This document shows positions 35,060-61,668 of a stretch of DNA of 64,000 bases, piece by piece. Below the pieces are notes generated by a model that saw only the letters and a program-made list of their open reading frames with translations, had not been told where the DNA came from and made no database searches. This stretch comes from Chitinophagales bacterium (GTDB lineage: Bacteria; Bacteroidota; Bacteroidia; Chitinophagales; LD1). The DNA lies in contig JAEUUZ010000059.1 in NCBI GenBank assembly GCA_016786765.1, positions 62,001-126,000 on the forward strand, written 5' to 3'. The translations under genes and the position numbers were made by a program. Each line of letters begins with the position of its first letter. Position 1 is the stretch's first letter.

Positions 35060-35109
35060 GCATTATTCTGCTTTAAAAGGAGATTTTTCGAGAAGAAAAG
35101 GGCGTTTTG

Positions 35110-35180
35110 CGGGCTTTTTGTTCCAATCTTTGTCCGTGGGAACGGCCAAAGGATTTCCACGTCAATCCCTAACGCGGGGA
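35110..35180 (-). repeat. Dispersed structured intergenic repeat, copy C
   Basis: Minus strand: CCCGCGTTAGGGATTGACG, GGAAATCC, a hairpin (CTTTGgCCG-TTCCCA-CGGaCAAAG), AGATTGGAAC and AAAAAGCCCG. The boxes align with copy D (36905-36990) while the hairpin arms differ in sequence but keep pairing. It lies just upstream of rpsA. Confidence 0.65.
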
Positions 35181-35243
35181 AATTTGTGTATGTAAGTGGC
35201 TGATTAGTAGCTTGTTGATCTGTTTTTTGATGATGCTCTATAG

Positions 35244-36904: not shown

Positions 36905-36990
36905 CGCAATGCCCGCGTTCGGGATAGGAACGGAAATCCTCTGGGGCTTCCGAGCGCCAGAGATTGGAGTGGATAGCCCGGGAAACGCCC
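36905..36990 (+). repeat. Dispersed structured intergenic repeat, copy D
   Basis: CAATGCCCGCGTTC, box 1 GGGATAGGAACGGAAATCC, hairpin CTCTGGgGCT-TCCG-AGCgCCAGAG, box 2 AGATTGGAGTGGATAGCCCG, then GGAAACGCCC. The two boxes resemble each other (GAT.GGA..GGA.A..CC), so the element looks like a duplicated half-site around a hairpin. Confidence 0.7.
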
Positions 36991-47618: not shown

Positions 47619-49775
47619 ATGAATTCTTTTTGGAAAGATTGGGCACTGTTAACGCACAAAGACCGACAGATATGGCGTTTTACAAAACAGGATGCAATTT
47701 CTGATGCATATCTCAAAGATGCAGCAATTGCGTTTGATTTTAATAAGCATGTAAATCCAAATGCAGCTGATTTAGTTTATCGAAATGCTAAATTGGAAGG
47801 TCAGGATATTGGAGAACGAAAGTCTAATTCCGTTGAAGATGCTTTACAACAAGCCATATATTTTTATTCGGCTATACAAACGGAAGATGGCCATTGGACA
47901 GGCGATTATGGCGGACCTTTATTTTTGTTACCGGGTTTAATTGTTGCTTCTGTTGTTACGGATACTCCACTACCCTCTGTTCATCAACGTTTGATTGCAC
48001 AGTATATTTTCAATCAGCAAAATAAAGATGGCGGCTGGGGTTTGCATATCGAAGATAGATCAACTGTTTTCGGCACAGTAATGAACTATGTTGCTTTACG
48101 TTTTTTGGGTTTTGATCTTTCTGATGAGCGTATGCAATTAGCGCATACATGGATACAGCAAACAGGTGGAGCAACCGGTATTCCATCGTGGGGTAAGTTT
48201 TATTTGTCTTTGTTGAACGTGTATGCATGGGAAGGGAATAACACATTACTGCCTGAGTTGTGGCTACTTCCAAAGGGATTACCTATTCATCCATGGCGTT
48301 ATTGGTGCCATACACGAATGGTATATTTGTCGATGAGCTATTGTTATGCCCATCGCATTCAAATTGCCGAATCGGAATTGGTTCATGCTATTCGGAAAGA
48401 AATTTATACTACGCCATATAATCAAATAAATTGGACAAAGGCTAAAGATGAGGTCAATGCTCTTGATGTCTATCACAAAGCATCGTCAATCCTAAATGTG
48501 TTTAATGCTTTCGCGAATTTCTATGAACGTTTTCCAATTCAACGATGGCGTAAAAAAGCGCTCGATTTTGTAAGTACATACATTGATGCAGAGGATGAGC
48601 AAACAAACTACATCAATATTGGTCCTGTCAATCAAGTAGTTAATTCTATTGCTGTGTGGCATAAGTATGGCAAAGAGAGCGAACAATTTCAAAAACATGT
48701 TGAGCGCTGGTACGATTATTTGTGGTTAGCTGAAGATGGCCTAAAAATGAATGGTTACAATGGTTCACAGCTTTGGGATACCGCTTTTGCCGTGCAAGCA
48801 TTTTGCGAATCAGATATGGCGCATTCATTTTTGCCTTCTATAGAAAACGCATATAGTTTTATTGATGACTCGCAAATCAAAACTGAGGTTCGTGATTTCA
48901 ACACCTACTTTAGGCATGCATCAGTAGGAGGGTGGCCATTCTCTACACGCGATCACAGTTGGCCAATCACTGATTGCACCGCAGAAGGCTTATTGGCTTC
49001 AATGGCTGTCCACTCCACCTTTCCGGAGCTTGAACGAAAGGTGAGTTATGAACGCATGTGTCAAGCGGTTGATTTAATTTTATCTTTTCAGAATGAAGAC
49101 AATGGTTGGGCTTCTTATGAATTGTCGCGCGGACCAAAATGGTTGGAAGTCCTTAATCCTGCAGCTGTTTTTGCTGATATTATGATTGATTATTCTTATG
49201 TAGAATGCAGCTCTTCATGTATTCAAGCTTTGCATGTGTTTCATCAACACTATCCAGAATATAAAACTAATCAAGTAAAAAATGCGATTGAAACCGGATT
49301 GCGATTTTTATTGTCGAAGCAACGTGAAGATGGGTCTTGGATTGGCTCTTGGGCGGTTTGTTTCACTTACGGAACTTGGTTTGCATTGGAAAGTTTAACG
49401 AAACAGGGGTATACCTATGCTAGTTCAAAATCGGTGAAAGGAGCATGCGATTTTCTTGTTGCAAAAGTAAAAGAAGATGGCGGATGGGGCGAATCCTTTG
49501 AATCTTGTGTTCGTAAAGAGTATATTCAGCATGGAACTTCACAATGTGTGAATACGGCATGGGCTCTATTATCTTTAATGGCTGCCGATTATCCGAATAA
49601 GCAACTCATCGATAAAGGAATACAGTTGTTGATTCAACGTCAAGTTCGGAATGGCGATTGGCCACAGGAAGCTATCAGCGGTGTGTTTAATTTCAATTGT
49701 ATGATTACGTATACATCTTACAGAAATGTTTTCCCCATATGGGCTTTGGCACGTTACATGCGAAAATATAATTAA
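47619..49775 (+). CDS. Oxidosqualene cyclase (sterol/triterpenol synthase)
   Basis: 718 residues. It cyclises 2,3-oxidosqualene to a sterol or other triterpenol. OSC rather than squalene-hopene cyclase identity is shown by the catalytic motif DCTAE (Asp452-Glu456; hopene cyclases have DDTA), by GGPLFLLPGL (98-107), GWGLHIEDRSTVFGTVMNYV (139-158), WCHTR (229-233), and the C-terminal GSWAVCFTYGTWFALE and YRNVFPIWALARY. Several QW repeats are present (134-140, 491-497, 568-574, 675-681). Tyr380 (NGYNGSQLWDTAF), His446 and Ile450 (DHSWPITDCTAE) match the Tyr/His/Ile set of plant cycloartenol synthase. The stop overlaps the convergent AraC gene stop. Product identity needs testing: bacterial OSCs make lanosterol, cycloartenol or arborane-type alcohols. 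Confidence 0.93.
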   Translation: MNSFWKDWALLTHKDRQIWRFTKQDAISDAYLKDAAIAFDFNKHVNPNAADLVYRNAKLEGQDIGERKSNSVEDALQQAIYFYSAIQTEDGHWTGDYGGPLFLLPGLIVASVVTDTPLPSVHQRLIAQYIFNQQNKDGGWGLHIEDRSTVFGTVMNYVALRFLGFDLSDERMQLAHTWIQQTGGATGIPSWGKFYLSLLNVYAWEGNNTLLPELWLLPKGLPIHPWRYWCHTRMVYLSMSYCYAHRIQIAESELVHAIRKEIYTTPYNQINWTKAKDEVNALDVYHKASSILNVFNAFANFYERFPIQRWRKKALDFVSTYIDAEDEQTNYINIGPVNQVVNSIAVWHKYGKESEQFQKHVERWYDYLWLAEDGLKMNGYNGSQLWDTAFAVQAFCESDMAHSFLPSIENAYSFIDDSQIKTEVRDFNTYFRHASVGGWPFSTRDHSWPITDCTAEGLLASMAVHSTFPELERKVSYERMCQAVDLILSFQNEDNGWASYELSRGPKWLEVLNPAAVFADIMIDYSYVECSSSCIQALHVFHQHYPEYKTNQVKNAIETGLRFLLSKQREDGSWIGSWAVCFTYGTWFALESLTKQGYTYASSKSVKGACDFLVAKVKEDGGWGESFESCVRKEYIQHGTSQCVNTAWALLSLMAADYPNKQLIDKGIQLLIQRQVRNGDWPQEAISGVFNFNCMITYTSYRNVFPIWALARYMRKYN

Positions 49776-50974
49776 TCTTCTTTCGTTTTGTTTTCTTTAC
49801 GCCATTCGGTAGGCGTTAGTCCTGTTGCGTTTTTGAAGAACGTGTTGAAGGTTGATTTCGAGTTAAAGCCACATTCATACGCAATGGCCACCAACGTGAG
49901 ATGTTCATATTGCGGGTCAATCATTCGCTTTTTAGTCTCTTCAATTCTGAATTCATTTACGTACTCAAAAAAGTTTTTCCCTAAATGATTATTGAGTAAT
50001 AATGTAATCTGGTGTTTCGGAATATTTAAGTTCTGGGATAAATCCATGAGCGTCAATTCCGGATTCAGAAAGGGTTTCTGCTCCGCCATGTAATGATTGA
50101 TTTTCTCAATCTGTTTTTGTTTTTCCGGTGTTAAGTCGGGTTGTTTTTCTTGGTTTACTTCTGCAGGAAGATTTTGCTCAATCGGTTTTTCTGTAACAAC
50201 AGCAGTGGGTTTGGTGAATTGCTGATTCACTGTATCGCTAATCATTCTGCGATAGGGTTCCTCATCTTCATTGAATTCCGATTCGTGTTTGAACAGGTTG
50301 GGTTGCTTGATGGAAAAGTAACTCACAGAATAGGTTAGAATCATTAAACCTATGCTCGGTATCACTTCCAAATCTTTTGAATCGGATCCTGCAAAGGCTG
50401 AGTAGAAGCGCGTAATGAAATAAATAATATATGTCACAACATAAATCACGGATATGTAATTCAACCAAAATAAACGGTTTGAAGTGGTGTCATACGAAAA
50501 CATGTTCATCTTAATCGAATTGCGAAAGCGCTGTAACCAAAGGAATACAAGTACAGTGTAGATGATGGATGTGATTAAGAAGAAAGTAGAAATAGAAATG
50601 CTTAATGCAAAAGCTTGAATCGAAAATTGATCTTTAAAAACGATAAAATAAATCGACACTAATACTAGAAACGGTGCAAAATGTAACAACTCGTATGGCG
50701 AGAAACGTTTAGACGGGTCGCTCAAATATTTTGTGTAGAGGAACAGAAATGGTCCAAACGTCAATGGAATTAAGCCAATGGAGAACTCAGCATCGAAAAA
50801 TTGTCCGTGTACTTGTTCAGTAGCAATTAAGAAGAATCGTAGTGCAATCGTTAATAACCATAAGATGAGAATACGGTCGTACGTTTTCTTTTTTCCTTTA
50901 GTATAAAAAAGAAAAGCAGAGAACAACGCTTGCGACAGCCCAATGTAACTGAATATGGTAATGTTGTTGATCAC
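49772..50974 (-). CDS. Membrane-anchored AraC-family transcriptional regulator
   Basis: 400 residues. About seven hydrophobic helices fill the first ~220 residues, followed by a charged linker and a C-terminal AraC DNA-binding domain with two HTH motifs (LTLMDLSQNLNIPKHQITLL and LTLVAIAYECGFNSKSTFNTFFK...TGLTPTEWR). Such 7TM-AraC proteins are common in Bacteroidota and may sense a membrane or lipid signal. The GTG start follows the DUF2147 stop directly (TAG-GTG), at the end of the operon that begins with squalene synthase. Inference: a candidate regulator of the isoprenoid/sterol genes. Confidence 0.88.
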   Translation of the reverse strand: MINNITIFSYIGLSQALFSAFLFYTKGKKKTYDRILILWLLTIALRFFLIATEQVHGQFFDAEFSIGLIPLTFGPFLFLYTKYLSDPSKRFSPYELLHFAPFLVLVSIYFIVFKDQFSIQAFALSISISTFFLITSIIYTVLVFLWLQRFRNSIKMNMFSYDTTSNRLFWLNYISVIYVVTYIIYFITRFYSAFAGSDSKDLEVIPSIGLMILTYSVSYFSIKQPNLFKHESEFNEDEEPYRRMISDTVNQQFTKPTAVVTEKPIEQNLPAEVNQEKQPDLTPEKQKQIEKINHYMAEQKPFLNPELTLMDLSQNLNIPKHQITLLLNNHLGKNFFEYVNEFRIEETKKRMIDPQYEHLTLVAIAYECGFNSKSTFNTFFKNATGLTPTEWRKENKTKED

Positions 50975-51403
50975 CTATTTATATCTTGTCCATTTTCTTG
51001 TTTTGCCTAAAAAGCGAAACCACCACCAGTAGCCTTTGATGTAGAGTACATCGTTTTCGATATACATTATGGCATTATAATCGCTACCTCCATCAAAATA
51101 ATAGTAATTGCCATCATTCCACGAAGTGCCGTTACGCTTACCTTTTAAGCCGGTTAAAACATCTATGCCTATTATCTTTCTGCTGCGTAGCTTTGGATTT
51201 TCGTTGTAGATATCTCTTCTGATTTCTCCATTTTCATCTAATGAATCTTTAACCCAAACTAGTTTTCCAAAAATCACATTGTTCTTCTCGTAAAATTGGA
51301 TGCGCATATCTTGGGCTTCGTTTGTCCATAATCCTTCTGTAATTGACGTTTGTGCAAAACAGTCAATTGATATGGACAATAAAACAATCAAAAAATATCT
51401 CAT
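50975..51403 (-). CDS. DUF2147 family secreted protein
   Basis: 142 residues with a signal peptide (1-17) and the DUF2147 pattern (EGLWTNEAQDMRIQFYEKNNVIFGKLVW, YDVLTGLKGKRNG-like core, ending KGYWWWFRFLGKTRKWTRYK). It probably forms a small secreted beta-barrel; the family has no agreed function. It lies 9 bp downstream of the polyprenyl synthase and directly upstream of the AraC gene, so it is a member of the sterol-side operon. Confidence 0.85.
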   Translation of the reverse strand: MRYFLIVLLSISIDCFAQTSITEGLWTNEAQDMRIQFYEKNNVIFGKLVWVKDSLDENGEIRRDIYNENPKLRSRKIIGIDVLTGLKGKRNGTSWNDGNYYYFDGGSDYNAIMYIENDVLYIKGYWWWFRFLGKTRKWTRYK

Positions 51404-51412
51404 CGTTTCAAA

Positions 51413-52378
51413 TTACTTTTCTCTGTTTCTCAGCAAATGTGCTAATTCAAACAATGGTTTTTTGTTTTCTTCCTTAGCGGTGATGGCTGTTAAATTCTTG
51501 ATGGCTTTTTTATAATACGCATCAATCAAATCTTCTGTGTATTTTTTTGCACCTGTTTGCTCCATCAACACTAAGATCTCTTTTACTTTCTTGCGTTTAT
51601 CTTTTTCAGTAAGCAATGCAGCAATTTTTTTGCGTTGCGTTGGATTAGCTAATTCAATGGCTTTCAATAAAAGAATGGTTTTTTTATTCAGAATAATATC
51701 GCCACCTGCCCGCTTTCCCACTTTCTTCGGATCTCCATAGGCATCTAAAAAGTCATCGTGAATTTGAAACGATAAGCCTAAGTTCAATCCAAATTCATAA
51801 ATATTCTTTTGCGATTTTTTATCGGCATCTGCAATCCATGCACCCATTTGCAGAGCACCCGCCAATAACACAGACGTCTTGCCTTTAATCATTTCCAAGT
51901 ATTCCGTTTCTGAAACATTATCTCTGGTTTCAAATTCCATGTCTTTCGATTGGCCTTCAATTACTTTAACCACAGTATCATTGAAAATCGCAAACAACTC
52001 TTGAATGTTGTCTTTCTTAATCTTTCCCAAATAGCCATACGATTGCGTAAACATCATATCTCCGGTGTTGATAGCTACATTGTTACCGTAAATCTTATGC
52101 ACTGTTGGATTTCCTCTTCGTGTAGTTGCCTTATCCATAATATCATCGTGCACCAAGGTAGAGTTGTGATATACTTCAACCGCCAACGCAGCCGGTAATG
52201 CTGTTTTTAAATTACCATTGAACAAATCGCAGCCCATTAAGGTGAGAGCCGGACGAATACGCTTACTGCTCATTGCCATAATGTATTGCATAGCTCGATA
52301 AACATCATAGCGTTCATCAAACGATTGTTCTGCATAATATTTTTCAAACATTGCCACTAACTCGGTATACGATTTCAT
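51413..52378 (-). CDS. Polyprenyl diphosphate synthase (FPP/GGPP-type)
   Basis: 321 residues, an all-helical class I trans-prenyltransferase. The first Asp-rich motif DDIMD (78-82) with RRG at 87-89, and the second, DDFLDAYGD, about 130 residues later, bind the allylic substrate and Mg2+. The first motif lacks the two-residue insertion of typical bacterial FPP synthases, and the residues four and five places before it (Ser73, Thr74) are small, a feature associated with longer products. The operon context suggests FPP supply for squalene synthase, but GGPP or longer is possible. It lies 84 bp downstream of the DUF1295 gene. Confidence 0.88.
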   Translation of the reverse strand: MKSYTELVAMFEKYYAEQSFDERYDVYRAMQYIMAMSSKRIRPALTLMGCDLFNGNLKTALPAALAVEVYHNSTLVHDDIMDKATTRRGNPTVHKIYGNNVAINTGDMMFTQSYGYLGKIKKDNIQELFAIFNDTVVKVIEGQSKDMEFETRDNVSETEYLEMIKGKTSVLLAGALQMGAWIADADKKSQKNIYEFGLNLGLSFQIHDDFLDAYGDPKKVGKRAGGDIILNKKTILLLKAIELANPTQRKKIAALLTEKDKRKKVKEILVLMEQTGAKKYTEDLIDAYYKKAIKNLTAITAKEENKKPLFELAHLLRNREK

Positions 52379-52462
52379 GCTTTTTTATTGAGGATGATTA
52401 ATTCGCCCCAATTTTAGCAAAATATTGACTTGTATTTATGTTTCCCACGCTTTTCCTTTACA

Positions 52463-53380
52463 TCAAAATAGTTTTGGCAGAAATCGTGGTGTCTTTTTGA
52501 TATAATCTTTGTAGCCCTCATATTTCTCGCTCGAAATACTCTCACTGAAATCGGCACTGCCCTGAAAAAGCAGAATTAACAATAATGCTCCGGTAACCGA
52601 CCAATTCAAATATCTGCCCGTTGCCACAATAGTGAACAAGAAAAAGGTAACCCAAATGCTTTGCTCCGAAGCGTAGTTCGGATGACGCACATACTTCCAC
52701 AAACCGTTATGCACAAAGCCTTTACTGTGATACTCTCCTAATGGTTCACCGGCATTCATTCTGCGATGTTTTTCGTTTTGATAAATCCACTGTTGTTGAT
52801 CAGCAATAGTTTCAAGTACTACAAAGCCTATGTAAACAATAGCCAAAATGTAATCACCAATCGTTAACTGCTGGCTATCGGCCTGAAATGCCAACACAGC
52901 AGGCAATGTGAACAGCCATATTAATGTGTTTTGATACAACGAAATAAACCCCAGATTAAAAATGGTCCATGTAAAACGATTTTGGAGAAAAGGCTTTTTT
53001 CGCAATACATCCCAACGATAATCTTCATGTCCTTCCCAGAATTTTAACTTGTAAGCACCTCTTCTGCCAAAGTTATAGGTAAGTCGAACGCCCCAAATAG
53101 TGGCTAATACAGCCATCAACACTAATCGCGGACTCCAATCACTTTCGTAAGCAAAGAGCCATGTATAGAGGATGGGCGTGATGCTCCACAATTTATCGAC
53201 CTGACTGCAATTGTTCGTTAATTCGCTTACAACAAAGCATGTTAATGCAACACCTAACATTAATAACCCCGAATGTTGTAGCATTTGAATTTGTAATGCA
53301 GAAAGCGGCTGATCAAATTGTATGGCTACAAAGGGAACTACAATAATCGTAACGATGAGAATGAAAATAGTTTTTAGCAT
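52463..53380 (-). CDS. DUF1295/steroid 5-alpha-reductase-like membrane protein, candidate sterol-modifying enzyme
   Basis: 305 residues with about eight hydrophobic segments. The C-terminal half carries the reductase/methyltransferase-superfamily motif YVRHPNYASEQSIW (about 230-243) and upstream ADQQQW (193-198), as in DUF1295 proteins related to steroid 5-alpha-reductase, sterol C14/C24 reductases and isoprenylcysteine methyltransferase. It lies 9 bp downstream of squalene monooxygenase in the same transcription unit. Inference: a reductase acting on the triterpenol or sterol product. Family members elsewhere often have no known substrate. Confidence 0.75.
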   Translation of the reverse strand: MLKTIFILIVTIIVVPFVAIQFDQPLSALQIQMLQHSGLLMLGVALTCFVVSELTNNCSQVDKLWSITPILYTWLFAYESDWSPRLVLMAVLATIWGVRLTYNFGRRGAYKLKFWEGHEDYRWDVLRKKPFLQNRFTWTIFNLGFISLYQNTLIWLFTLPAVLAFQADSQQLTIGDYILAIVYIGFVVLETIADQQQWIYQNEKHRRMNAGEPLGEYHSKGFVHNGLWKYVRHPNYASEQSIWVTFFLFTIVATGRYLNWSVTGALLLILLFQGSADFSESISSEKYEGYKDYIKKTPRFLPKLF

Positions 53381-53389
53381 ATCTAAATT

Positions 53390-54790
53390 TTAAAGTGCAA
53401 TCTGTTTTTTTCTAAATATTTTATTGCCCAAACGTAACCACATTTTTGTTGAATTGTTTTGTACTTCATTGTTCAAAAGTGGATAAATAATGGCATAAGC
53501 ATCGCCTACCATATAGTACGCATCAACCATTGAAGCTATTCCAGGATTTTTATTTACTTTCCTCATACCCCCTTTTGCTGCAACTGCAAAAAAGTGTTTA
53601 GCTAAAGTAATTTTGCTTTTTTCGATTCCTGAAAGTAAAGCAATAGGCTCTTCTGCTTGCTTTCCGCCTGCTGCTAAGTAATTGAAACAGGCCTCTTTCA
53701 AATCATGATTACTCATTACTTTGTAAAGCGCATCTGCTAAAATATTTACTGCTGTATTTTGAGTGCGTGAAGCATAGAATACACGAATCAATTCCATTCG
53801 TTCCTCAGTAGTTTCAATTGGTAACGTCTTCAATAATTGTTGTATGCTGTTTACATCACGGAGCGTAACTGTCATCCCACCACCGGTGAGCGGATGCCGC
53901 ATATTTAGCGCATCACCAAGCACCACAACACCGTCTTGCATAATTGGTTTACCCGGCAAATAATGGTTGGGCATTACTTTGAATTTTCCTTCTAGCATGC
54001 ATACATCAAAAGCTTTGTGCATACTCTCCGGAATACGACTGCGCACATGTTGGTGGAGGTATTGTACCAACTCCTCGCTTTTTCGCGGTGGTTGATGACC
54101 GGGGAAGTCAATTAAAAATCGGATTTCATTTTTCGTTATGGGGTAACATAAAAACGGTGAGGACTCAGTCAAAAATACATGTCCGTGTTCAGCAAATGGC
54201 AGCGGACAATCTTTCAAAACAATACCTAAAAAGTAACCCGTAACAGTTGCAGCTACTTCAGTGGTTTGTTTTCGGAATGTAGAAAAGAAGCCATCCATTA
54301 CGATGGTTAGTTTTGCATTTATTGCGATCGATTGTCCTGCTTTATCTCTGCAATAAATCCCTGCAATTCGATTTCCTTTTTCGTGGATGAACGTTTGCGC
54401 TTCCGCTTCAATTTTCTTGATATTATTGCCTTTTGTTAATTCATCACGCATTTTCTGTACAAATTTTCCATTCGTTAATCCCAAGCCGAATTTCCCTTCC
54501 GGATAAGCAATGTGTAATGGCGTATCGTCTTTCATAATGGTGTAGCCTGTTATGCGTTGGGCATCATACCCATCCAGCAAATGCTCTAATTGCATTGCTT
54601 TCAGTTGTTCAACACCATCGGGTTGCATCAATTCGCCAACAATACGATCTTGTTCGCGCCAATCTTTTTCAACAATAATTACTTTTAGCTTTTCATTTGC
54701 TAAGCTGCACGCCAAGGCTGCTCCTGCAACCCCGGCACCTATGATACAAATATCGGCATCATGGTGAGTGAGATGTGTTTCGTTCATCAT
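53390..54790 (-). CDS. Squalene monooxygenase (squalene epoxidase)
   Basis: 466 residues from the ATG at 54790. FAD-dependent oxidation of squalene to 2,3-oxidosqualene, the substrate of the cyclase gene in this locus. Visible motifs: GxGxxG as GAGVAG at 18-23, the DRIVGELMQPDG motif of squalene epoxidases at 48-59, and the FAD-phosphate motif GDALNMRHPLTGGGMTV at about 292-308. The enzyme normally needs a reductase partner. Its start overlaps the squalene synthase stop by one base (TAATG), so translation is coupled. The frame continues to 54856 inside the synthase gene; this extension was not used. Confidence 0.92.
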   Translation of the reverse strand: MMNETHLTHHDADICIIGAGVAGAALACSLANEKLKVIIVEKDWREQDRIVGELMQPDGVEQLKAMQLEHLLDGYDAQRITGYTIMKDDTPLHIAYPEGKFGLGLTNGKFVQKMRDELTKGNNIKKIEAEAQTFIHEKGNRIAGIYCRDKAGQSIAINAKLTIVMDGFFSTFRKQTTEVAATVTGYFLGIVLKDCPLPFAEHGHVFLTESSPFLCYPITKNEIRFLIDFPGHQPPRKSEELVQYLHQHVRSRIPESMHKAFDVCMLEGKFKVMPNHYLPGKPIMQDGVVVLGDALNMRHPLTGGGMTVTLRDVNSIQQLLKTLPIETTEERMELIRVFYASRTQNTAVNILADALYKVMSNHDLKEACFNYLAAGGKQAEEPIALLSGIEKSKITLAKHFFAVAAKGGMRKVNKNPGIASMVDAYYMVGDAYAIIYPLLNNEVQNNSTKMWLRLGNKIFRKKQIAL

Positions 54791-55956
54791 TAAAAAATTA
54801 TTGGATTCGTTAATCTTTGTCCGAGTGCCAGTTTTATTTGACAGATGCTTCCCCACATAGTAGCAGGAGTGTTTTTGCTGTCTTGCATTTTTTCTTCTAA
54901 CTCTTCAATGAAGTGAAGCATCATTTGTTTTGTGCTTTCGAAATCGCGTGTTTCCATCATGATTTTAGCCGATAAGCCTTTTCTGATTTTCACATTTTTG
55001 CGAAACACTTCCGGGTTGTCATAGAGTTCAACAAGCGTAGCAATGGCCATCAATTGCGGAATAGCGCAGAAACGGAAAATTTGCATGTTCTGCAATTGAC
55101 TCAAATAGTTGATACAATCGGGTAAATGGCGAATCGCATCTTCAATCATACAGTTCAAGCCTTTTAATGAAGTGCTGCTTTCGGGCATAGATTTGAAAAG
55201 CGATAACGCTGGATGATGTTTATCCCAAATTTCGTTGGGCCAGAAAATGCGGTTAACTTCAAAATCTTCCAGAAAATCGCGGGTGATATTAGTTTTCTGC
55301 AGAAACAAGCCCATAGAATTAGCGATGGTCATTTCTGAAGCCAATCCTTCTGCTTCAAAACCAGATGCGGAAAACAACTGACTTAAACCTTGTCCCACCA
55401 AACCTGCTACATAATGACAATAAATATCGTAGTCCTGAATGGTTGTAATTTTGTAAGAACCCGAATCGGCCATGCCATTCCCCATGCGGAAGCAGATATC
55501 GGAAATCACTTCCTTATATTCAGGTTTCAATTGAATGAATGAGCGCGTTACCTTATCGAAATGTTGTAACAACAAACGATAATCTTCCGTATCGCCAATG
55601 CCCGTCAATGTGAAATCAGATAAGTAACACGATTTGTAAAAATTGCGGAGTAAACGTTCTTTTTCCGTTTCGTCTAGTTTCATATCGTCTTCTACGGTAT
55701 CGAGTCCGCGCAGCACCAAATAGAAAATGCCTACCGCTTCCTTTAATTCTTGCGGTAATTGTTGAATCACAATGGCGAACGAACGCGATACCTTTGTGAG
55801 GGCATCAAAACAGAACGCCATATCAGATCGGGTAAGCGCAGCTTCTGCCAAATTGATTTCACCCTGTTTGGGTTTTTCGCTGATGGAAAATTTAAGTAAC
55901 GCCTTCAACTCAGAAGGGTGCGAAGCCGATTTTATTAAGTTTTTTAATGTGCTCAT
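54790..55956 (-). CDS. Squalene synthase (farnesyl-diphosphate farnesyltransferase, eukaryotic type)
   Basis: 388 residues. It joins two FPP and reduces the product to squalene. Diagnostic motifs: VSRSFAIVIQQLP (56-68), first Asp-rich motif DTVEDD (86-91), GMADSGS (161-167), DYDIYCHYVAGLVG (175-188), and KTNITRDFLEDF with second motif DFLED (227-231). These resemble ERG9-type enzymes rather than the three-enzyme HpnCDE route of most hopanoid bacteria. It has no evident C-terminal membrane helix, unlike most eukaryotic forms. First gene of the minus-strand unit; a TAGGTTTG box lies 20 bp upstream. Confidence 0.93.
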   Translation of the reverse strand: MSTLKNLIKSASHPSELKALLKFSISEKPKQGEINLAEAALTRSDMAFCFDALTKVSRSFAIVIQQLPQELKEAVGIFYLVLRGLDTVEDDMKLDETEKERLLRNFYKSCYLSDFTLTGIGDTEDYRLLLQHFDKVTRSFIQLKPEYKEVISDICFRMGNGMADSGSYKITTIQDYDIYCHYVAGLVGQGLSQLFSASGFEAEGLASEMTIANSMGLFLQKTNITRDFLEDFEVNRIFWPNEIWDKHHPALSLFKSMPESSTSLKGLNCMIEDAIRHLPDCINYLSQLQNMQIFRFCAIPQLMAIATLVELYDNPEVFRKNVKIRKGLSAKIMMETRDFESTKQMMLHFIEELEEKMQDSKNTPATMWGSICQIKLALGQRLTNPIIF

Positions 55957-55975
55957 ACGTTGTGTTTTAGTGATG

Positions 55976-55983
55976 CAAACCTA
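55976..55983 (-). promoter_or_regulatory. -7 box (TAGGTTTG) for the squalene synthase operon
   Basis: On the minus strand TAGGTTTG fits TAnnTTTG and ends 19 bp before the squalene synthase ATG (20 bp if the box edge is counted). No TTG is placed at the usual -33 distance. Confidence 0.45.
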
Positions 55984-56309
55984 GGCTAGGGGTAGCCCTT
56001 TGGCGTATGTATCGAGCAGCAGACGTATGCTTTTCCCATTTTTGTTTAAACGAACACTCAAAAAACTGAATATCAGTCTATTGTAAGTTTATTTTTGGCG
56101 GTCGAATGGAGCGATTTTGCGTATTCGAACGAAATGGGGCAGAAAATGACTATTTATAAAGCATTGATAATCATTTATGTGTAAATTTGACAAACGAAGC
56201 CTTTAACGAGGTAGTTTTGGGGCGTGTATTTGGTTTATCCGAACTTAAAACGGTTCAAAAAATCGAAACCTTAAGCTTTATGCGTAAATTCGCCTCGGAA
56301 AATAAATAC
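55984..56309. other. Intergenic region between the divergent sterol and mevalonate transcription units
   Basis: This gap of about 325 bp separates the divergent squalene synthase and IPP isomerase genes. It contains the upstream open frame of the isomerase, whose residues are not family-like, and no clear promoter for the isomerase. It is the natural place for shared regulation of both halves of the pathway; no clear palindrome was seen. Confidence 0.4.
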
Positions 56310-57323
56310 ATGAATTTAGACCCAACAGCCGAACAGCGGAAAAAAGATCACATTGATTTAGCGTTTCAATCGCAGATTCAAACGAACGAATTGGACCAAC
56401 GTTTTTACTACGAGCCGATGTTATCTGCGCATCCTTCTCAACCGCTTCAATCTTTTTCTTTTTTAGGAAAAACGATGAATGCCCCGATTTGGATTTCTTC
56501 TATGACGGGGGGAACCGGTCCGGCACGACATATCAACCAAAACCTCGGCCGGGTTTGCGGTGAATTTGGTTTAGGTATGGGCTTGGGTTCAACACGTGCA
56601 TTATTGGATAGCGATCAGTTTTTTGCCGATTTCGATTTACGTCAGTTGATTGGCAACGAACATCCTTTCTTTATTAATTTGGGTATTGCACAAGTCGAGA
56701 AATTATTAGCCACCGGAAGTTTTGAAAAAGCAATTGCGCTTACCGATAAGTTACAAGCTGATGGTATGTTCATTCATGTAAACCCGATGCAAGAATGGTT
56801 GCAACCTGAGGGGGATCATATTAGTCGTCCGCCTTTAGAAACCATTGCTGAAGTTTTGAGTTTGTATTCAAAGCCGGTGATCGTAAAAGAAGTGGGGCAG
56901 GGTTTCGGACCGGAAAGTATAAAAGCACTATTGCAAATGCCTTTAGTAGCCATTGATTTTGCAGCTGCAGGCGGAACCAATTTTGCGAAAATTGAATTGC
57001 TACGTTCCGATATGCAGAAGCAACAGATTTTTGATGCGTTTGCGAAAGTGGGGCATTCTGCAGCAGAAATGGTAGAATTTACGAATGCTGCAATAGCTGA
57101 ATTAGGCGATAAAGTAAAAGTGAAGGAGTTGATTATCTCGGGTGGAGTGAAAAACTACCTCGATGGCTATTATCTGATAAACAAATCGAAGCTTCCTGCT
57201 GTTTATGGTCAGGGAAGTGCGTTGTTGCAATATGCAGGTGAATCGTACGAAAGTTTAAAAGCCTACGTTGAAAGTCAAATAAAAGGATTAACTTTTGCCA
57301 ATGCTTTTTTGCGAATAAAGTGA
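56310..57323 (+). CDS. fni: Type 2 isopentenyl-diphosphate delta-isomerase (FMN-dependent)
   Basis: 337 residues from MNLDPTAEQRKKDHIDLAF. It interconverts IPP and DMAPP. The TIM-barrel family motifs are present: RKKDHI at the start, ISSMTGGTGPARHINQNLG, GMGLGSTRALL, HVNPMQEWLQPEGD, KEVGQGFG and AAGGTNFAKIE. The frame is open 41 codons further upstream to 56187, but the shorter start gives the normal length for the family. It heads the plus-strand side of the locus, divergent from squalene synthase and followed by HMG-CoA reductase 100 bp away. Confidence 0.93.
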   Translation: MNLDPTAEQRKKDHIDLAFQSQIQTNELDQRFYYEPMLSAHPSQPLQSFSFLGKTMNAPIWISSMTGGTGPARHINQNLGRVCGEFGLGMGLGSTRALLDSDQFFADFDLRQLIGNEHPFFINLGIAQVEKLLATGSFEKAIALTDKLQADGMFIHVNPMQEWLQPEGDHISRPPLETIAEVLSLYSKPVIVKEVGQGFGPESIKALLQMPLVAIDFAAAGGTNFAKIELLRSDMQKQQIFDAFAKVGHSAAEMVEFTNAAIAELGDKVKVKELIISGGVKNYLDGYYLINKSKLPAVYGQGSALLQYAGESYESLKAYVESQIKGLTFANAFLRIK

Positions 57324-57324
57324 T

Positions 57325-57365
57325 CAGTTAGCTTCTAGAGGCTAGCTTCTAGTAGCTAGGGGCTT
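57325..57365. repeat. AGCTA-rich element, locus 3 (single arm)
   Basis: Read on the minus strand it contains AGCCCCTAGCTACTAGAAGC, which matches the left arm of locus 1 (17041-17063) with one change in 23. It lies between the IPP isomerase and HMG-CoA reductase genes. Confidence 0.55.
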
Positions 57366-57384
57366 AATTAATTGTTTTAATTCA

Positions 57385-57392
57385 TAATTTTG
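57385..57392 (+). promoter_or_regulatory. -7 box (TAATTTTG) upstream of HMG-CoA reductase
   Basis: TAATTTTG fits TAnnTTTG and ends 31 bp before the ATG at 57424. A TTG at 57372-57374 is only 10 bp away and too close for a -33 box. It suggests a separate promoter for the mevalonate genes after the AGCTA element. Confidence 0.4.
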
Positions 57393-57423
57393 CAACAACT
57401 CGAACGAATTTAGTTTAAGGAAT

Positions 57424-58752
57424 ATGAGTAAAGAAATACAAGGTTTTTCGAAGATGTCCAAAAAGGAGAAGATCCAATGGATGGCGAAGAATTTCCTTTA
57501 TGCGAATCCGATTGATGTGATGAAAGAGTTTGCCGGTTTCTGGCACGACAACATCGAAGCACAAAAGCTTTTAGACGGATTCAGCGAAAATACATTAACG
57601 AACTTTCCGGTACCTTTCGGTATCGCACCAAACTTCATGATCAATGGCGAGATTTATGCTGTGCCGATGGTGATTGAAGAAAGCTCGGTGGTGGCTGCTG
57701 CTTCGAATGCCGCTAAGTTTTGGTTAAGTCGTGGTGGTTTTAAGGCAAAAGTGATTTCGTCTACAAAGGTCGGACAAGTGCATTTTCAATTTGATGGCGA
57801 TAAAGAAAAATTGTTTTTCCTTTTCAATACAGAAATAAAAGCAAAGTTACTCCAAGCGGTAAAACCCATTACAGCAAATATGGAGAAAAGGGGAGGGGGG
57901 GTGAAAGACTTGGAATTGATTGATTTCACATCTATAGAACCCGATTACTATCAAATTCGTTGCTATTTTGAAACAGTAGATTCTATGGGGGCGAATTTTA
58001 TCAATTCATGCTTGGAGGAATTCGGAAAGTCTTTGGTAGATATTATTTCGAATGATGCTCGTTTCAATTTGGAAGAGCAAAGCATAGAAGTAATTATGTG
58101 TATTCTTTCGAATTACACTCCGGAATGTGTGGTGAAAGCGGAAGTAGAATGTAATGTAGATGAACTCGGTTCTTTCGATGATGGAAAGATGAAAGCCCGC
58201 GAATTTGCGGCTCGTTTTGCAAAGGCTGTTCGCATTGCGCAAATCGATCCGTATCGCGCCACAACACATAACAAAGGAATTATGAATGGCATTGATGCCG
58301 TAGTGTTGGCTACAGGTAACGATTTCAGGGCCATTGAGGCTTGTGCACATACTTATGCAGCGCGCGATGGACAGTATAGAAGTCTATCGGAATGCACCAT
58401 TGAAAACAATATTTTCAATTTCAGTTTAACCATTCCATTAGCCGTTGGAACAGTAGGAGGATTAACTTCTTTGCATCCATTAGCGAAGCGTTCGCTAGAA
58501 GTATTAGGCAATCCATCCGCCCATCGCTTAATGGAAATTATTGCAACAGTTGGTTTGGCGCAAAACTTTGCTGCCGTGAAATCGTTGACTACAGTTGGTA
58601 TTCAGAAAGGACATATGAAAATGCACCTCACCAATATTTTGGCATCGTTCCAAGCAACGGATGCAGAAATGGAAAAAGCACGTCAGTATTTTGAAGACAA
58701 AACCGTTTCCGTTTCCGGTGTTCGTGAATATCTGTTAGACATCCGAAAATGA
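57424..58752 (+). CDS. Hydroxymethylglutaryl-CoA reductase (class II type)
   Basis: 442 residues. It reduces HMG-CoA to mevalonate, the committed step of the pathway. Visible landmarks: VIEESSVVAAASNAAKFW (about 83-100) with the conserved Glu, DSMGANFINSC (186-196), HNKGIMNGIDAVVLATGND (282-300) holding the catalytic Lys284 and Asp300, and GHMKMHL with His397. The length and absence of membrane segments match bacterial class II enzymes. The last four bases overlap the following GHMP kinase gene (ATGA). Confidence 0.94.
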   Translation: MSKEIQGFSKMSKKEKIQWMAKNFLYANPIDVMKEFAGFWHDNIEAQKLLDGFSENTLTNFPVPFGIAPNFMINGEIYAVPMVIEESSVVAAASNAAKFWLSRGGFKAKVISSTKVGQVHFQFDGDKEKLFFLFNTEIKAKLLQAVKPITANMEKRGGGVKDLELIDFTSIEPDYYQIRCYFETVDSMGANFINSCLEEFGKSLVDIISNDARFNLEEQSIEVIMCILSNYTPECVVKAEVECNVDELGSFDDGKMKAREFAARFAKAVRIAQIDPYRATTHNKGIMNGIDAVVLATGNDFRAIEACAHTYAARDGQYRSLSECTIENNIFNFSLTIPLAVGTVGGLTSLHPLAKRSLEVLGNPSAHRLMEIIATVGLAQNFAAVKSLTTVGIQKGHMKMHLTNILASFQATDAEMEKARQYFEDKTVSVSGVREYLLDIRK

Positions 58753-59675
58753 GTGCTGCCACTTTTTATGCTTCAGGTAAATTACTGCTCTCTTCCGAAT
58801 ACTTTATTCTCGATGGTGCGCAAGGACTTGCGATTCCTTCGGTCTACGGACAACGAATGGAAGCAACCAACTTGCAAACACACTCAAATAAACTGTCTTG
58901 GAAAGCATTTACATCCACTAAAACCCTGTGGTTGGATTTAGTTTTTGATAAGCGAACATTGCAAACAACTACCGATAGCAAAGAAGCCAAAATGCTCTCG
59001 TTAATACTCCAAAAAATTCGCGAACAACAACCCGATTTCTTGCTGAATGATAACGATATTGAAGTGGCTACATACCTTGAATTTCCTAATGCTTGGGGTT
59101 TAGGTTCCAGCTCTACGTTGTTGGCTTGTTTGGCGCAGTGGATCAACATCGATTGGTATACACTCTTAAAAGAAACGATTGGCGGTTCCGGTTATGATGT
59201 AGCTTGTGGATTAGCGAAAACGCCTGTTCTATATAGTATTGAAGCCGGTCGGCCGGTTGTGAAGTCTGTTGTTTTTCAACCCGAATTTTCGGAACAACTC
59301 TATTTTGCTTATTTGGGAAAGAAGCAGTTATCGTCACAAGGTATTCAGCATTATAAAGACAAAGCACAAGATAAAGCCGCAATTGCACTACAATTGTCAG
59401 CCATCACCACAGCAATGCTCAACTGCAATGAGTTGAATGCTTTTGAAACATTGTTAGAAGAGCACGAGTACATTATCAGTAATGCGTTGGGAATGGAACG
59501 TGTGCAGCAAAGTATTTTCCCTGATTATTGGGGAAAAGTGAAATCGTTAGGTGCATGGGGTGGCGATTTTGTTTTATTAACGAATAACAGAACGGAAAAA
59601 GAACTACGCGATTATTTACAACAAAAAAATATTGATGTTGTTTTTAGCTTTAGCGAATTAATATTGAAATCATAA
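58749..59675 (+). CDS. GYDIA-type GHMP kinase (candidate phosphomevalonate kinase)
   Basis: 308 residues. The GHMP kinase motifs are FYASGKLLLSSEYFILDG, PNAWGLGSSSTLLACLAQW (ATP loop), GGSGYDVACG (the GYDIA position), and GAWGGDFVLL near the C-terminus. Among Bacteroidota this subfamily regularly accompanies mevalonate genes. A distinct mevalonate kinase and a diphosphomevalonate decarboxylase are encoded downstream, so the missing step it would fill is phosphomevalonate phosphorylation. It starts within the HMG-CoA reductase stop region (4-bp overlap), implying translational coupling. Confidence 0.85.
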   Translation: MSAATFYASGKLLLSSEYFILDGAQGLAIPSVYGQRMEATNLQTHSNKLSWKAFTSTKTLWLDLVFDKRTLQTTTDSKEAKMLSLILQKIREQQPDFLLNDNDIEVATYLEFPNAWGLGSSSTLLACLAQWINIDWYTLLKETIGGSGYDVACGLAKTPVLYSIEAGRPVVKSVVFQPEFSEQLYFAYLGKKQLSSQGIQHYKDKAQDKAAIALQLSAITTAMLNCNELNAFETLLEEHEYIISNALGMERVQQSIFPDYWGKVKSLGAWGGDFVLLTNNRTEKELRDYLQQKNIDVVFSFSELILKS

Positions 59676-59677
59676 AT

Positions 59678-60727
59678 ATGAACACGATAAAAAAAGTAAC
59701 CTGGCAGAGTCCTTCAAACATTGCGCTCATCAAGTATTGGGGCAAACACGGCAATCAGTTGCCGAACAATCCTTCCATTAGTTTTACCTTGGAAGAGTGT
59801 TATTCTGAAACTACTTTGGCGATTGAGCCGAAGATAGGTTCGAGCAATGAAATTGAATTGCGTTTCTATTTCGATAAGAAAGAGAACTTAGCGTTTCGTT
59901 TGAAGATCTTGCAATTCTTCGAATCCATCCACAAAGAGTTTTCGTTTTTACGCGATTACTCGATTGTGATTCACTCGATGAATTCGTTTCCGCATTCATC
60001 AGGTATCGCTTCTTCTGCATCATCCATGAGTGCATTGGCGTTGTGTTTGTGTTCTATGGACGATATGCTGAACAAGCGCAAAACGCCTAAAGACGACTTC
60101 TTCGCTCGTGCATCACACTTTGCACGCTTAGGTTCAGGTAGTGCTTGTCGCTCAGTATATCCGGTAATGGCATCGTGGGGCAAAAACAAACACATCAAAA
60201 ATTCATCCGATAAATTTGCTACTGATTGCAGCGATTGGATTCATCCAATTTTCAAAACATTTCAGAATTCGATTCTGATTGCTTCTGCATCCGAGAAAAA
60301 AGTATCGAGCCGTGTGGGGCATTCATTAATGGAAACCAATCCGTTTGCTACCGCACGTTACAAGCAAGCCAACGATAATTTGAATACACTGATCAAAGCC
60401 TTAATGACAGGCGATCTAGATACCTTCGGAGAAATTGTTGAAACAGAAGCGCTTACGTTGCACGCTTTGATGATGTGCTCTACGCCTTCATTTACTTTGA
60501 TGACACCGAACACATTGGCGATGATTGAAGCCATTCGCGACTTCCGTGAAAGCTCTCAGATTCCGGTGTACTTTACTTTAGATGCCGGTCCGAATATTCA
60601 CTTGTTGTATCCAAATAAATTCAAAAGCAAAGTGCATGAATTTATTGATCTTGAGTTGAAACAATTCTGCGAGAACGGTCGCATTATTTTTGATGCCGTG
60701 GGCAAAGGTCCGAAATTAATTAAGTAA
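59678..60727 (+). CDS. mvaD: Diphosphomevalonate decarboxylase
   Basis: 349 residues. ATP-dependent decarboxylation of mevalonate diphosphate to IPP. Motifs: WQSPSNIALIKYWGKHGNQL at the N-terminus, HSSGIASSASSMSALAL (ATP loop), GSGSACRSVYPVMASWG, and TLDAGPNIHLLY near the end, which match the GHMP decarboxylase. It lies 2 bp after the previous GHMP kinase, within the same operon. Confidence 0.94.
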   Translation: MNTIKKVTWQSPSNIALIKYWGKHGNQLPNNPSISFTLEECYSETTLAIEPKIGSSNEIELRFYFDKKENLAFRLKILQFFESIHKEFSFLRDYSIVIHSMNSFPHSSGIASSASSMSALALCLCSMDDMLNKRKTPKDDFFARASHFARLGSGSACRSVYPVMASWGKNKHIKNSSDKFATDCSDWIHPIFKTFQNSILIASASEKKVSSRVGHSLMETNPFATARYKQANDNLNTLIKALMTGDLDTFGEIVETEALTLHALMMCSTPSFTLMTPNTLAMIEAIRDFRESSQIPVYFTLDAGPNIHLLYPNKFKSKVHEFIDLELKQFCENGRIIFDAVGKGPKLIK

Positions 60728-60750
60728 CAACAACGCACAATTCAGGGTTT

Positions 60751-61668
60751 ATGCAACGTAAGGCAATAGCATTTCAAACATTTCCATCCAAAGTACTTTT
60801 GTTCGGTGAACACATCATTAACAAAGGCGCACAGGGCTTGGCTATTCCTTCTCGCTTGTATAGCGGTAAACTCACCTATTCGAAAACTGATTCGGAGGAA
60901 GACAAAAATTCCAATCATTCGTTGGCCCATTTAGCAAAGTATATTATTGAACATCCTGAATTAGAAAAACATATTGCCATCAACGATTTTCTTACCGCCA
61001 TTGAACGCGGTTTAGTTTTCGATTCTAATATCCCACAAGGTTATGGCATGGGCAGTTCAGGGGCGCTGGTCGCTGCTGTGCTTTCTGCATACGGACATGC
61101 TGCAATATTGGATAGTGATATTCAATCCATCAAAAACTTTCTGGCGGCCATGGAAAGTTGCTTTCATGGACGAAGTTCAGGGCTCGATCCTATTGTAGCT
61201 TATTTACAGAAACCTTTGCTGGTGTCTATGAAAGATACACAAGTCGCCTTGTTCAAAAAAAGTCCTGCTCCGGTGTTTGATGTAAGTTTGTTTGATACCG
61301 GTGTGCCGCGCAAAACAGCCGATTGGGTGCGTTTGTTTATGGAACGCACACAACAGCATGCTTTTGGCGAAATCGTTGAAAAATCAATGCTTCCGGCCAA
61401 TCAAATGTGTATTGATGCGATGTTGAATTTGAAATATGTTCCGTTCTGGAAATCGCTGAAATTGATTTCGCAATTGCAGTTCGATTATATGCAAGACTTT
61501 ATACCAAAAGCATTTCACGGTGTATGGAAAAACGGCTTGCTCAATAATGAATATTACCTCAAAATCTGTGGTGCCGGTGGAGGTGGCTTTATTCTATGTT
61601 TTTCAAAAGCGAATACCGACTTATCCAACTTCCGCTTTGCAGAAAGACATGAAGTGATGAAATTCTAG
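60751..61668 (+). CDS. mvk: Mevalonate kinase
   Basis: 305 residues. It phosphorylates mevalonate. The N-terminal FPSKVLLFGEHIINKGAQGL, the ATP loop NIPQGYGMGSSGALVAAV, HGRSSGLDPIVAYL with the conserved catalytic Asp, and the C-terminal KICGAGGGGFILCF match the mevalonate kinase branch of GHMP kinases. It is the last gene of the operon, 23 bp after mvaD, and converges with the T9SS lipoprotein gene 5 bp away. Confidence 0.9.
   Translation: MQRKAIAFQTFPSKVLLFGEHIINKGAQGLAIPSRLYSGKLTYSKTDSEEDKNSNHSLAHLAKYIIEHPELEKHIAINDFLTAIERGLVFDSNIPQGYGMGSSGALVAAVLSAYGHAAILDSDIQSIKNFLAAMESCFHGRSSGLDPIVAYLQKPLLVSMKDTQVALFKKSPAPVFDVSLFDTGVPRKTADWVRLFMERTQQHAFGEIVEKSMLPANQMCIDAMLNLKYVPFWKSLKLISQLQFDYMQDFIPKAFHGVWKNGLLNNEYYLKICGAGGGGFILCFSKANTDLSNFRFAERHEVMKF

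Follow-up and report, generated by a model that had tools for sequence, protein, structure and literature searches.

A compact Chitinophagales locus encodes a sterol pathway, with cycloartenol as its predicted product, beside a mevalonate operon

A locus of about 14 kb (positions 47619 to 61668) in the window, which is the 64,000-nucleotide stretch of Chitinophagales bacterium DNA that we analyzed, carries intact genes for an oxidosqualene cyclase (OSC), an ERG9-type squalene synthase (SQS), a squalene monooxygenase (SQMO), and a prenyl diphosphate synthase, together with a five-gene mevalonate operon. We consider it highly probable that these genes specify the whole aerobic pathway leading from HMG-CoA to a sterol, with cycloartenol, the precursor of plant-type sterols, as the likely end lipid. 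Sterol pathways are rare in bacteria, and accounts of them often place the genes at scattered sites. The locus holds the following genes.

47619..49775, plus strand: OSC, predicted cycloartenol synthase, 718 aa (TIGR03463/TIGR01787, human LSS 1w6k, active-site residue table)
49772..50974, minus strand: AraC-type HTH regulator (Pfam HTH_18/HTH_AraC), with a 4-bp tail-to-tail overlap with the OSC gene
50975..51403, minus strand: DUF2147 protein, lipocalin-like (Pfam PF09917; PDB relative HP1028, 4inn, E=5.7e-5)
51413..52378, minus strand: isoprenyl diphosphate synthase (Pfam polyprenyl_synt, 251 bits; motifs HDDIMD and HDDFLD)
52463..53380, minus strand: DUF1295 membrane protein (PF06966, 142 bits)
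53390..54790, minus strand: SQMO, 466 aa (Pfam SE, 258 bits; human 6c6n)
54790..55956, minus strand: SQS, ERG9 type (TIGR01559; eukaryotic squalene synthase structures)
56187..57323, plus strand: type 2 isopentenyl-diphosphate isomerase (IDI2; TIGR02151, 194 bits, under cut-off; IDI-2 structures 1vcf and 2zru)
57424..58752, plus strand: HMG-CoA reductase (HMGR; TIGR00532, 273 bits, over cut-off)
58749..59675, plus strand: GYDIA-family GHMP kinase, putative phosphomevalonate kinase (NF040656, 345 bits, over cut-off)
59678..60727, plus strand: diphosphomevalonate decarboxylase (MVD; TIGR01240, 179 bits, over cut-off)
60751..61668, plus strand: mevalonate kinase-like GHMP kinase (MVK; TIGR00549, 84 bits, best family, under cut-off)

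A first-pass annotation had named ten of these genes, and all ten are open reading frames at the positions it assigned, with profile and structure matches that agree with the names and with every motif that it quoted present in the sequence. Its minus-strand run was incomplete, omitting the AraC-type regulator and the DUF2147 gene, and its identification of SQMO holds with a corrected start, which is 54790 and not the start of the longer frame. The TAATG overlap of SQS and SQMO is found at 54790, and the ATGA overlap of HMGR and the GHMP kinase is found at 58749 to 58752. Enzyme identities, catalytic motifs, gene order, and co-occurrence are read directly from the sequence. Profile, structure, and residue comparisons bear out the earlier reading that oxidosqualene cyclization is encoded and that the route from HMG-CoA is clustered.

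The minus-strand run comprises six genes in the order SQS, SQMO, DUF1295, prenyl synthase, DUF2147, and AraC-type regulator, with gaps of -1, 9, 84, 9, and 0 bp. It ends tail to tail with the OSC gene and diverges from the mevalonate operon, and the prenyl synthase lies inside it. Because the tightly packed sterol run diverges from the mevalonate operon, precursor supply and sterol synthesis could be co-regulated at this locus. A Bacteroidota promoter motif gave 6 matches versus 6.4 expected by chance, and scans for sigma-70 promoters and terminators did no better than shuffles. Elsewhere in the window there are two matches to Flavo-1 RNA (RF01705), at 35103-35183 (minus strand) and 36913-36987 (plus strand), on opposite strands and about 1.7 kb apart.

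An NCBIfam profile search placed the cyclase over the cut-off of TIGR01787 (679 bits) and below that of TIGR03463 (687 bits; cut-off, 851), and the narrower TIGR03463 2,3-oxidosqualene cyclase subfamily name was thus withheld. The squalene-hopene cyclase (SHC) equivalog TIGR01507 gave 249 bits, under its cut-off of 431. Pfam found both the N and C domains of SQHop_cyclase. The best solved structure was human lanosterol synthase (LSS; 1w6k), with 716 bits over 646 residues and 47% identity, and the match to an SHC structure was far weaker, at 147 bits. These values and the DCTAE motif with its catalytic Asp place the enzyme among the OSCs and not with the hopene type, in agreement with the first-pass annotation.

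The criterion for a cycloartenol synthase is Y381/H449/I453 in human numbering (PMC4919349), and the window OSC has the full triad (Y/H/I). It also keeps D455, C456, H232, W387, F444, Y503, C533, W581, and F696. Among the bacterial producers surveyed, I453 always goes with cycloartenol and V453 always goes with lanosterol (PMC4919349). Every cyclase from the window's family with coverage of these sites has the Y/H/I triad, and the methanotroph OSCs in the comparison set have V453, as expected. Because the triad is complete, the predicted product of the window OSC is more likely cycloartenol than an arborane-type compound. The first-pass annotation had drawn an analogy to Eudoraea adriatica, whose OSC we take to be the bacterial enzyme that reportedly makes arborane triterpenols. 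We set this analogy aside, since the residues are of the cycloartenol-synthase type and the nearest experimental precedent, Fluviicola taffensis, makes cycloartenol.

The SQS scored 415 bits against TIGR01559 (cut-off, 287) and only 55 bits against HpnD, and it carries DTVEDD and DFLED; these features identify it as ERG9 type and not as part of an HpnCDE system, and its best structure matches are eukaryotic squalene synthases. The best structure for SQMO is the human squalene monooxygenase 6c6n (E=9e-73). SQMO has the SE domain and both FAD motifs (GxGxxG and GD), found as GAGVAG and GDALNMRHPLTGGG, which support its assignment to this family. The isoprenyl diphosphate synthase is a probable FPP/GGPP synthase. 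The gene previously called steroid-reductase-like turned out to encode a DUF1295 protein that matches PF06966 only and not PF01222 (ERG4/ERG24), and no DUF1295 gene was found near any other OSC, SQMO, or SQS locus examined. We therefore rejected a role for it as a sterol reductase.

In the mevalonate operon, HMGR and MVD exceeded their cut-offs, IDI2 and MVK matched their families best but under the cut-offs, and the phosphomevalonate kinase step is covered through the GYDIA family only, the kinase being assigned putatively from its position and the need of the pathway. The true start of the isomerase is probably downstream of 56187. HMGR is present in 29 of 30 genomes of the window's family, with or without OSC, and the operon (IDI2-HMGR-GYDIA kinase-MVD-MVK) is housekeeping in the family.

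We infer the product and the end point of the pathway from the gene content. HMGR, the two GHMP kinases, MVD, and the type 2 isomerase would supply IPP and DMAPP, from which the prenyl synthase would make FPP. The ERG9-type synthase would condense two FPP to squalene, which the FAD monooxygenase would epoxidize with O2, and the cyclase would turn 2,3-oxidosqualene into cycloartenol. Cycloartenol, or a close isomer, would then be the end lipid, probably acting as a membrane sterol of a cell that lacks hopanoids. A search of the window genome found a single cyclase and no SHC. There was no match in this genome to ERG4/ERG24 (PF01222), for which six other genomes in the same search were all positive, or to Sterol_MT_C, in a search without a positive control. 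The sole P450 had no CYP51 match in NCBIfam, which may include no CYP51 model, and its matches were to generic terpenoid-type P450s, far below cut-offs. Since no genes for downstream demethylation, C-14 reduction, or side-chain methylation are evident in the window genome, cycloartenol is the likely end product.

Two other outcomes for the pathway have to be weighed. It is unlikely that the cyclase gives a different oxidosqualene product (lanosterol, parkeol, arborane, or another pentacyclic triterpenol). Banta 2017, by its title, describes a bacterial OSC producing arborane triterpenols, and at human position 450 the window OSC is unique in carrying Ser, where all other OSCs covering the site have Gly; this position directly follows the product-determining His449, and the substitution could change the product. 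Nevertheless, Y381, H449, and I453 are all in place, as in cycloartenol synthases, the I453-cycloartenol correlation is perfect among tested bacteria, and one tested cycloartenol producer belongs to the Bacteroidetes (PMC4919349). Still less probable is that the sterol genes, though intact, are not expressed or lead only as far as squalene or oxidosqualene, as the precedent of Corallococcus coralloides might suggest, where SE and OSC genes are intact and no sterol was detected (PMC4919349); this reading is countered by the retention of OSC, SQS, and SQMO together in 19 genomes with conserved active sites. The reading of a working route to cycloartenol remains the one that we prefer.

The 3.6-Mb window genome also has 11 matches to FA_hydroxylase (PF04116), on contigs C34, C46, C10, C60, C59, C5, and C19, five of them on C34, and one of these genes could act on the sterol. 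ERG4/ERG24-family reductases occur, isolated from the sterol cluster, in three related genomes: G006 (L155:9844-11160, minus strand), G008 (L156:10871-12214, minus strand), and G010 (L157:9443-10519, plus strand). They may modify the sterol further in those organisms.

Of 61 related genomes, 19 have an OSC, and exactly these 19 also have an ERG9-type SQS above the cut-off and a strong SQMO match; outside this set, G014 has a fragment of SQMO at the end of a contig. Seventeen of the 30 genomes in the window's family have OSC. Among 396 genomes drawn evenly from the phylum, only four further OSC matches spanned most of the protein, all of them distant (33 to 34% identity), and four more genomes had short, weak matches only. 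The OSC/SQS/SQMO set is thus rare in the phylum and common in the window's family. We considered and rejected a recent transfer of the OSC from a eukaryote to a bacterium, since the OSC fell in a bacterial clade apart from the human and plant OSCs (97), in a tree that included only two eukaryotic sequences, and its GC content resembles that of the remainder of the window (36 to 41% versus 35 to 44%).

Three distant genomes of the phylum (G328, G450, and G359) have an SQMO-like FAD domain fused to the OSC N terminus in one frame of about 1,150 aa (L107:6698-10201, plus strand; L108:8152-11568, minus strand; L109:7492-10959, plus strand). The L107 fusion matches Pfam SE with 73 bits and SQHop with 190 bits, and the OSC triad of the fusions is A/H/V. 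SdmB-, SdmA-, ERG24-, and P450-like genes lie upstream of the L107 fusion, and L108 is accompanied by a Sterol_MT_C methyltransferase. A literature search found no published SE-OSC fusion. An OSC-SQS-SQMO cluster from a metagenome-assembled genome labeled Competibacteraceae (L017) nested with the Bacteroidota locus L007, and L005 is labeled Chitinophaga pinensis; such conflicts of label and placement reflect either misbinning or transfer.

A genome of the same genus (G001, 87% complete) had no match to OSC, SQMO, or ERG9-type SQS. Its contig C69 carries MVK-MVD-GYDIA-HMGR-IDI2 divergent from a prenyl synthase about 165 bp away, with no sterol genes, and this prenyl synthase is 71% identical to that of the window. 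In the window, DUF1295-SQMO-SQS occupies the corresponding gap between the prenyl synthase and the mevalonate genes, and the prenyl synthase is flanked on its far side by DUF2147-AraC-OSC. In another genus, G008 has SQS-SQMO-DUF2147-AraC as one block apart from its mevalonate genes, and the window SQS and SQMO have their closest relatives in this genome (69% and 57% identity; trees, 100/100 and 99/100). The simplest reading is that a block like that of G008 ended up on both sides of the prenyl synthase in a mevalonate divergon that was already there; loss of the sterol genes in G001 is the alternative. We also considered discordant origins of OSC and SQS/SQMO and discarded them, as the window-G008 pair is absent from the OSC tree yet is not rejected there (p-AU 0.39).

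The clustering with mevalonate genes that the first-pass annotation emphasized is real, and none of the open-access papers that we searched describes a sterol-mevalonate locus, but the operon belongs to the family's housekeeping set. The linkage may be incidental, the sterol genes having landed by the housekeeping divergon without co-regulation, a reading that we would put somewhat short of an even chance. HMGR is kept irrespective of OSC, G001 has the divergon without the sterol genes, and the OSC-bearing genomes of genera g2 and g3 have HMGR elsewhere. However, in genus g4, HMGR and then the GYDIA kinase come directly after SQMO, all in one orientation, in G004, G010, and G014, and two further g4 genomes, G016 (HMGR cut by a contig end) and G007 (the two genes at ends of contigs), are consistent with this linkage. 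The sterol-mevalonate link is thus present in two genera in two different layouts, and such recurrence argues for selection. The position of the window prenyl synthase within the sterol run, with gaps of 9 and 84 bp, likewise speaks against an incidental linkage.

The AraC-type regulator has a membrane-spanning N-terminal half with five helices by simple hydropathy. The DUF2147 protein is probably exported, and its relative Hp1028 is counted among calycin-fold proteins (PMC7521688). The regulator adjoins DUF2147 in all seven genomes that have it at full length, and the pair lies beside SQS/SQMO in four of these (the window, G002, G008, and G038). In G048 the pair is elsewhere in a genome that has sterol genes, and in G050 and G055 it occurs without OSC, which we count against a sterol-dedicated role. 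Literature titles and abstracts contained nothing on DUF2147 and sterols. To our knowledge, no bacterial sterol regulation or transport is known outside the methanotrophs. We hypothesize that the DUF2147 protein is a sterol carrier and the AraC-type protein a sterol sensor. It is a rather doubtful extension of this idea that the locus forms a self-contained, regulated cycloartenol module, in which a membrane AraC-type sensor and the lipocalin-like protein are dedicated to envelope sterol sensing and carriage, and that such modules were joined to isoprenoid supply at least two times in the family.

The chemistry and the kinds of enzymes are already known, with an experimental precedent in the phylum. 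Fluviicola taffensis RW262 (SE, Fluta_3221; CAS, Fluta_3214) has cycloartenol as its sole sterol by GC-MS and no downstream genes (Wei et al. 2016, PMC4919349). It shares with the window the phylum, an I453-type OSC with SE, and the lack of downstream sterol genes, and its SE and CAS locus tags are seven apart; linkage to mevalonate, prenyl synthase, or AraC/DUF2147 genes is not reported there. The methanotrophs (Methylococcus and Methylotuvimicrobium) have a related OSC adjoining SQMO (L011 and L014; 52% OSC identity), but it is of the V453 lanosterol type, and SQS and mevalonate genes are not adjacent; C-14/C-4 demethylation genes and Bst transporters are reported for their loci (PMC10942540). 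Some myxobacteria (Stigmatella, Cystobacter, and Nannocystis) make cycloartenol by the same aerobic SE/OSC chemistry, but their sterol genes are described as spread through the genome (PMC10152446), unlike the single 14-kb locus of the window. The family's housekeeping mevalonate operon has the same genes as that of the window, in identical order in G001, whereas the window has SQS-SQMO-DUF1295 between the operon and the prenyl synthase. Eudoraea adriatica likewise has a Bacteroidota OSC by an SE gene and differs in product class (presumably arborane type). The two genes are G504DRAFT_2315/2316 (PMC4919349). The spread of a cycloartenol-type cyclase through over half of the genomes of a single family bears on whether molecules derived from cycloartenol are read as signals of plants or algae. 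The complete locus, the same-genus site without sterol genes, and the candidate regulator/carrier pair offer entry points to the role of an unmodified sterol in Bacteroidota. Compared to these known systems, the new details are the placement of sterol genes on both sides of a mevalonate divergon's prenyl synthase, the SQMO-HMGR layout in a second genus, and the linked AraC/DUF2147 pair.
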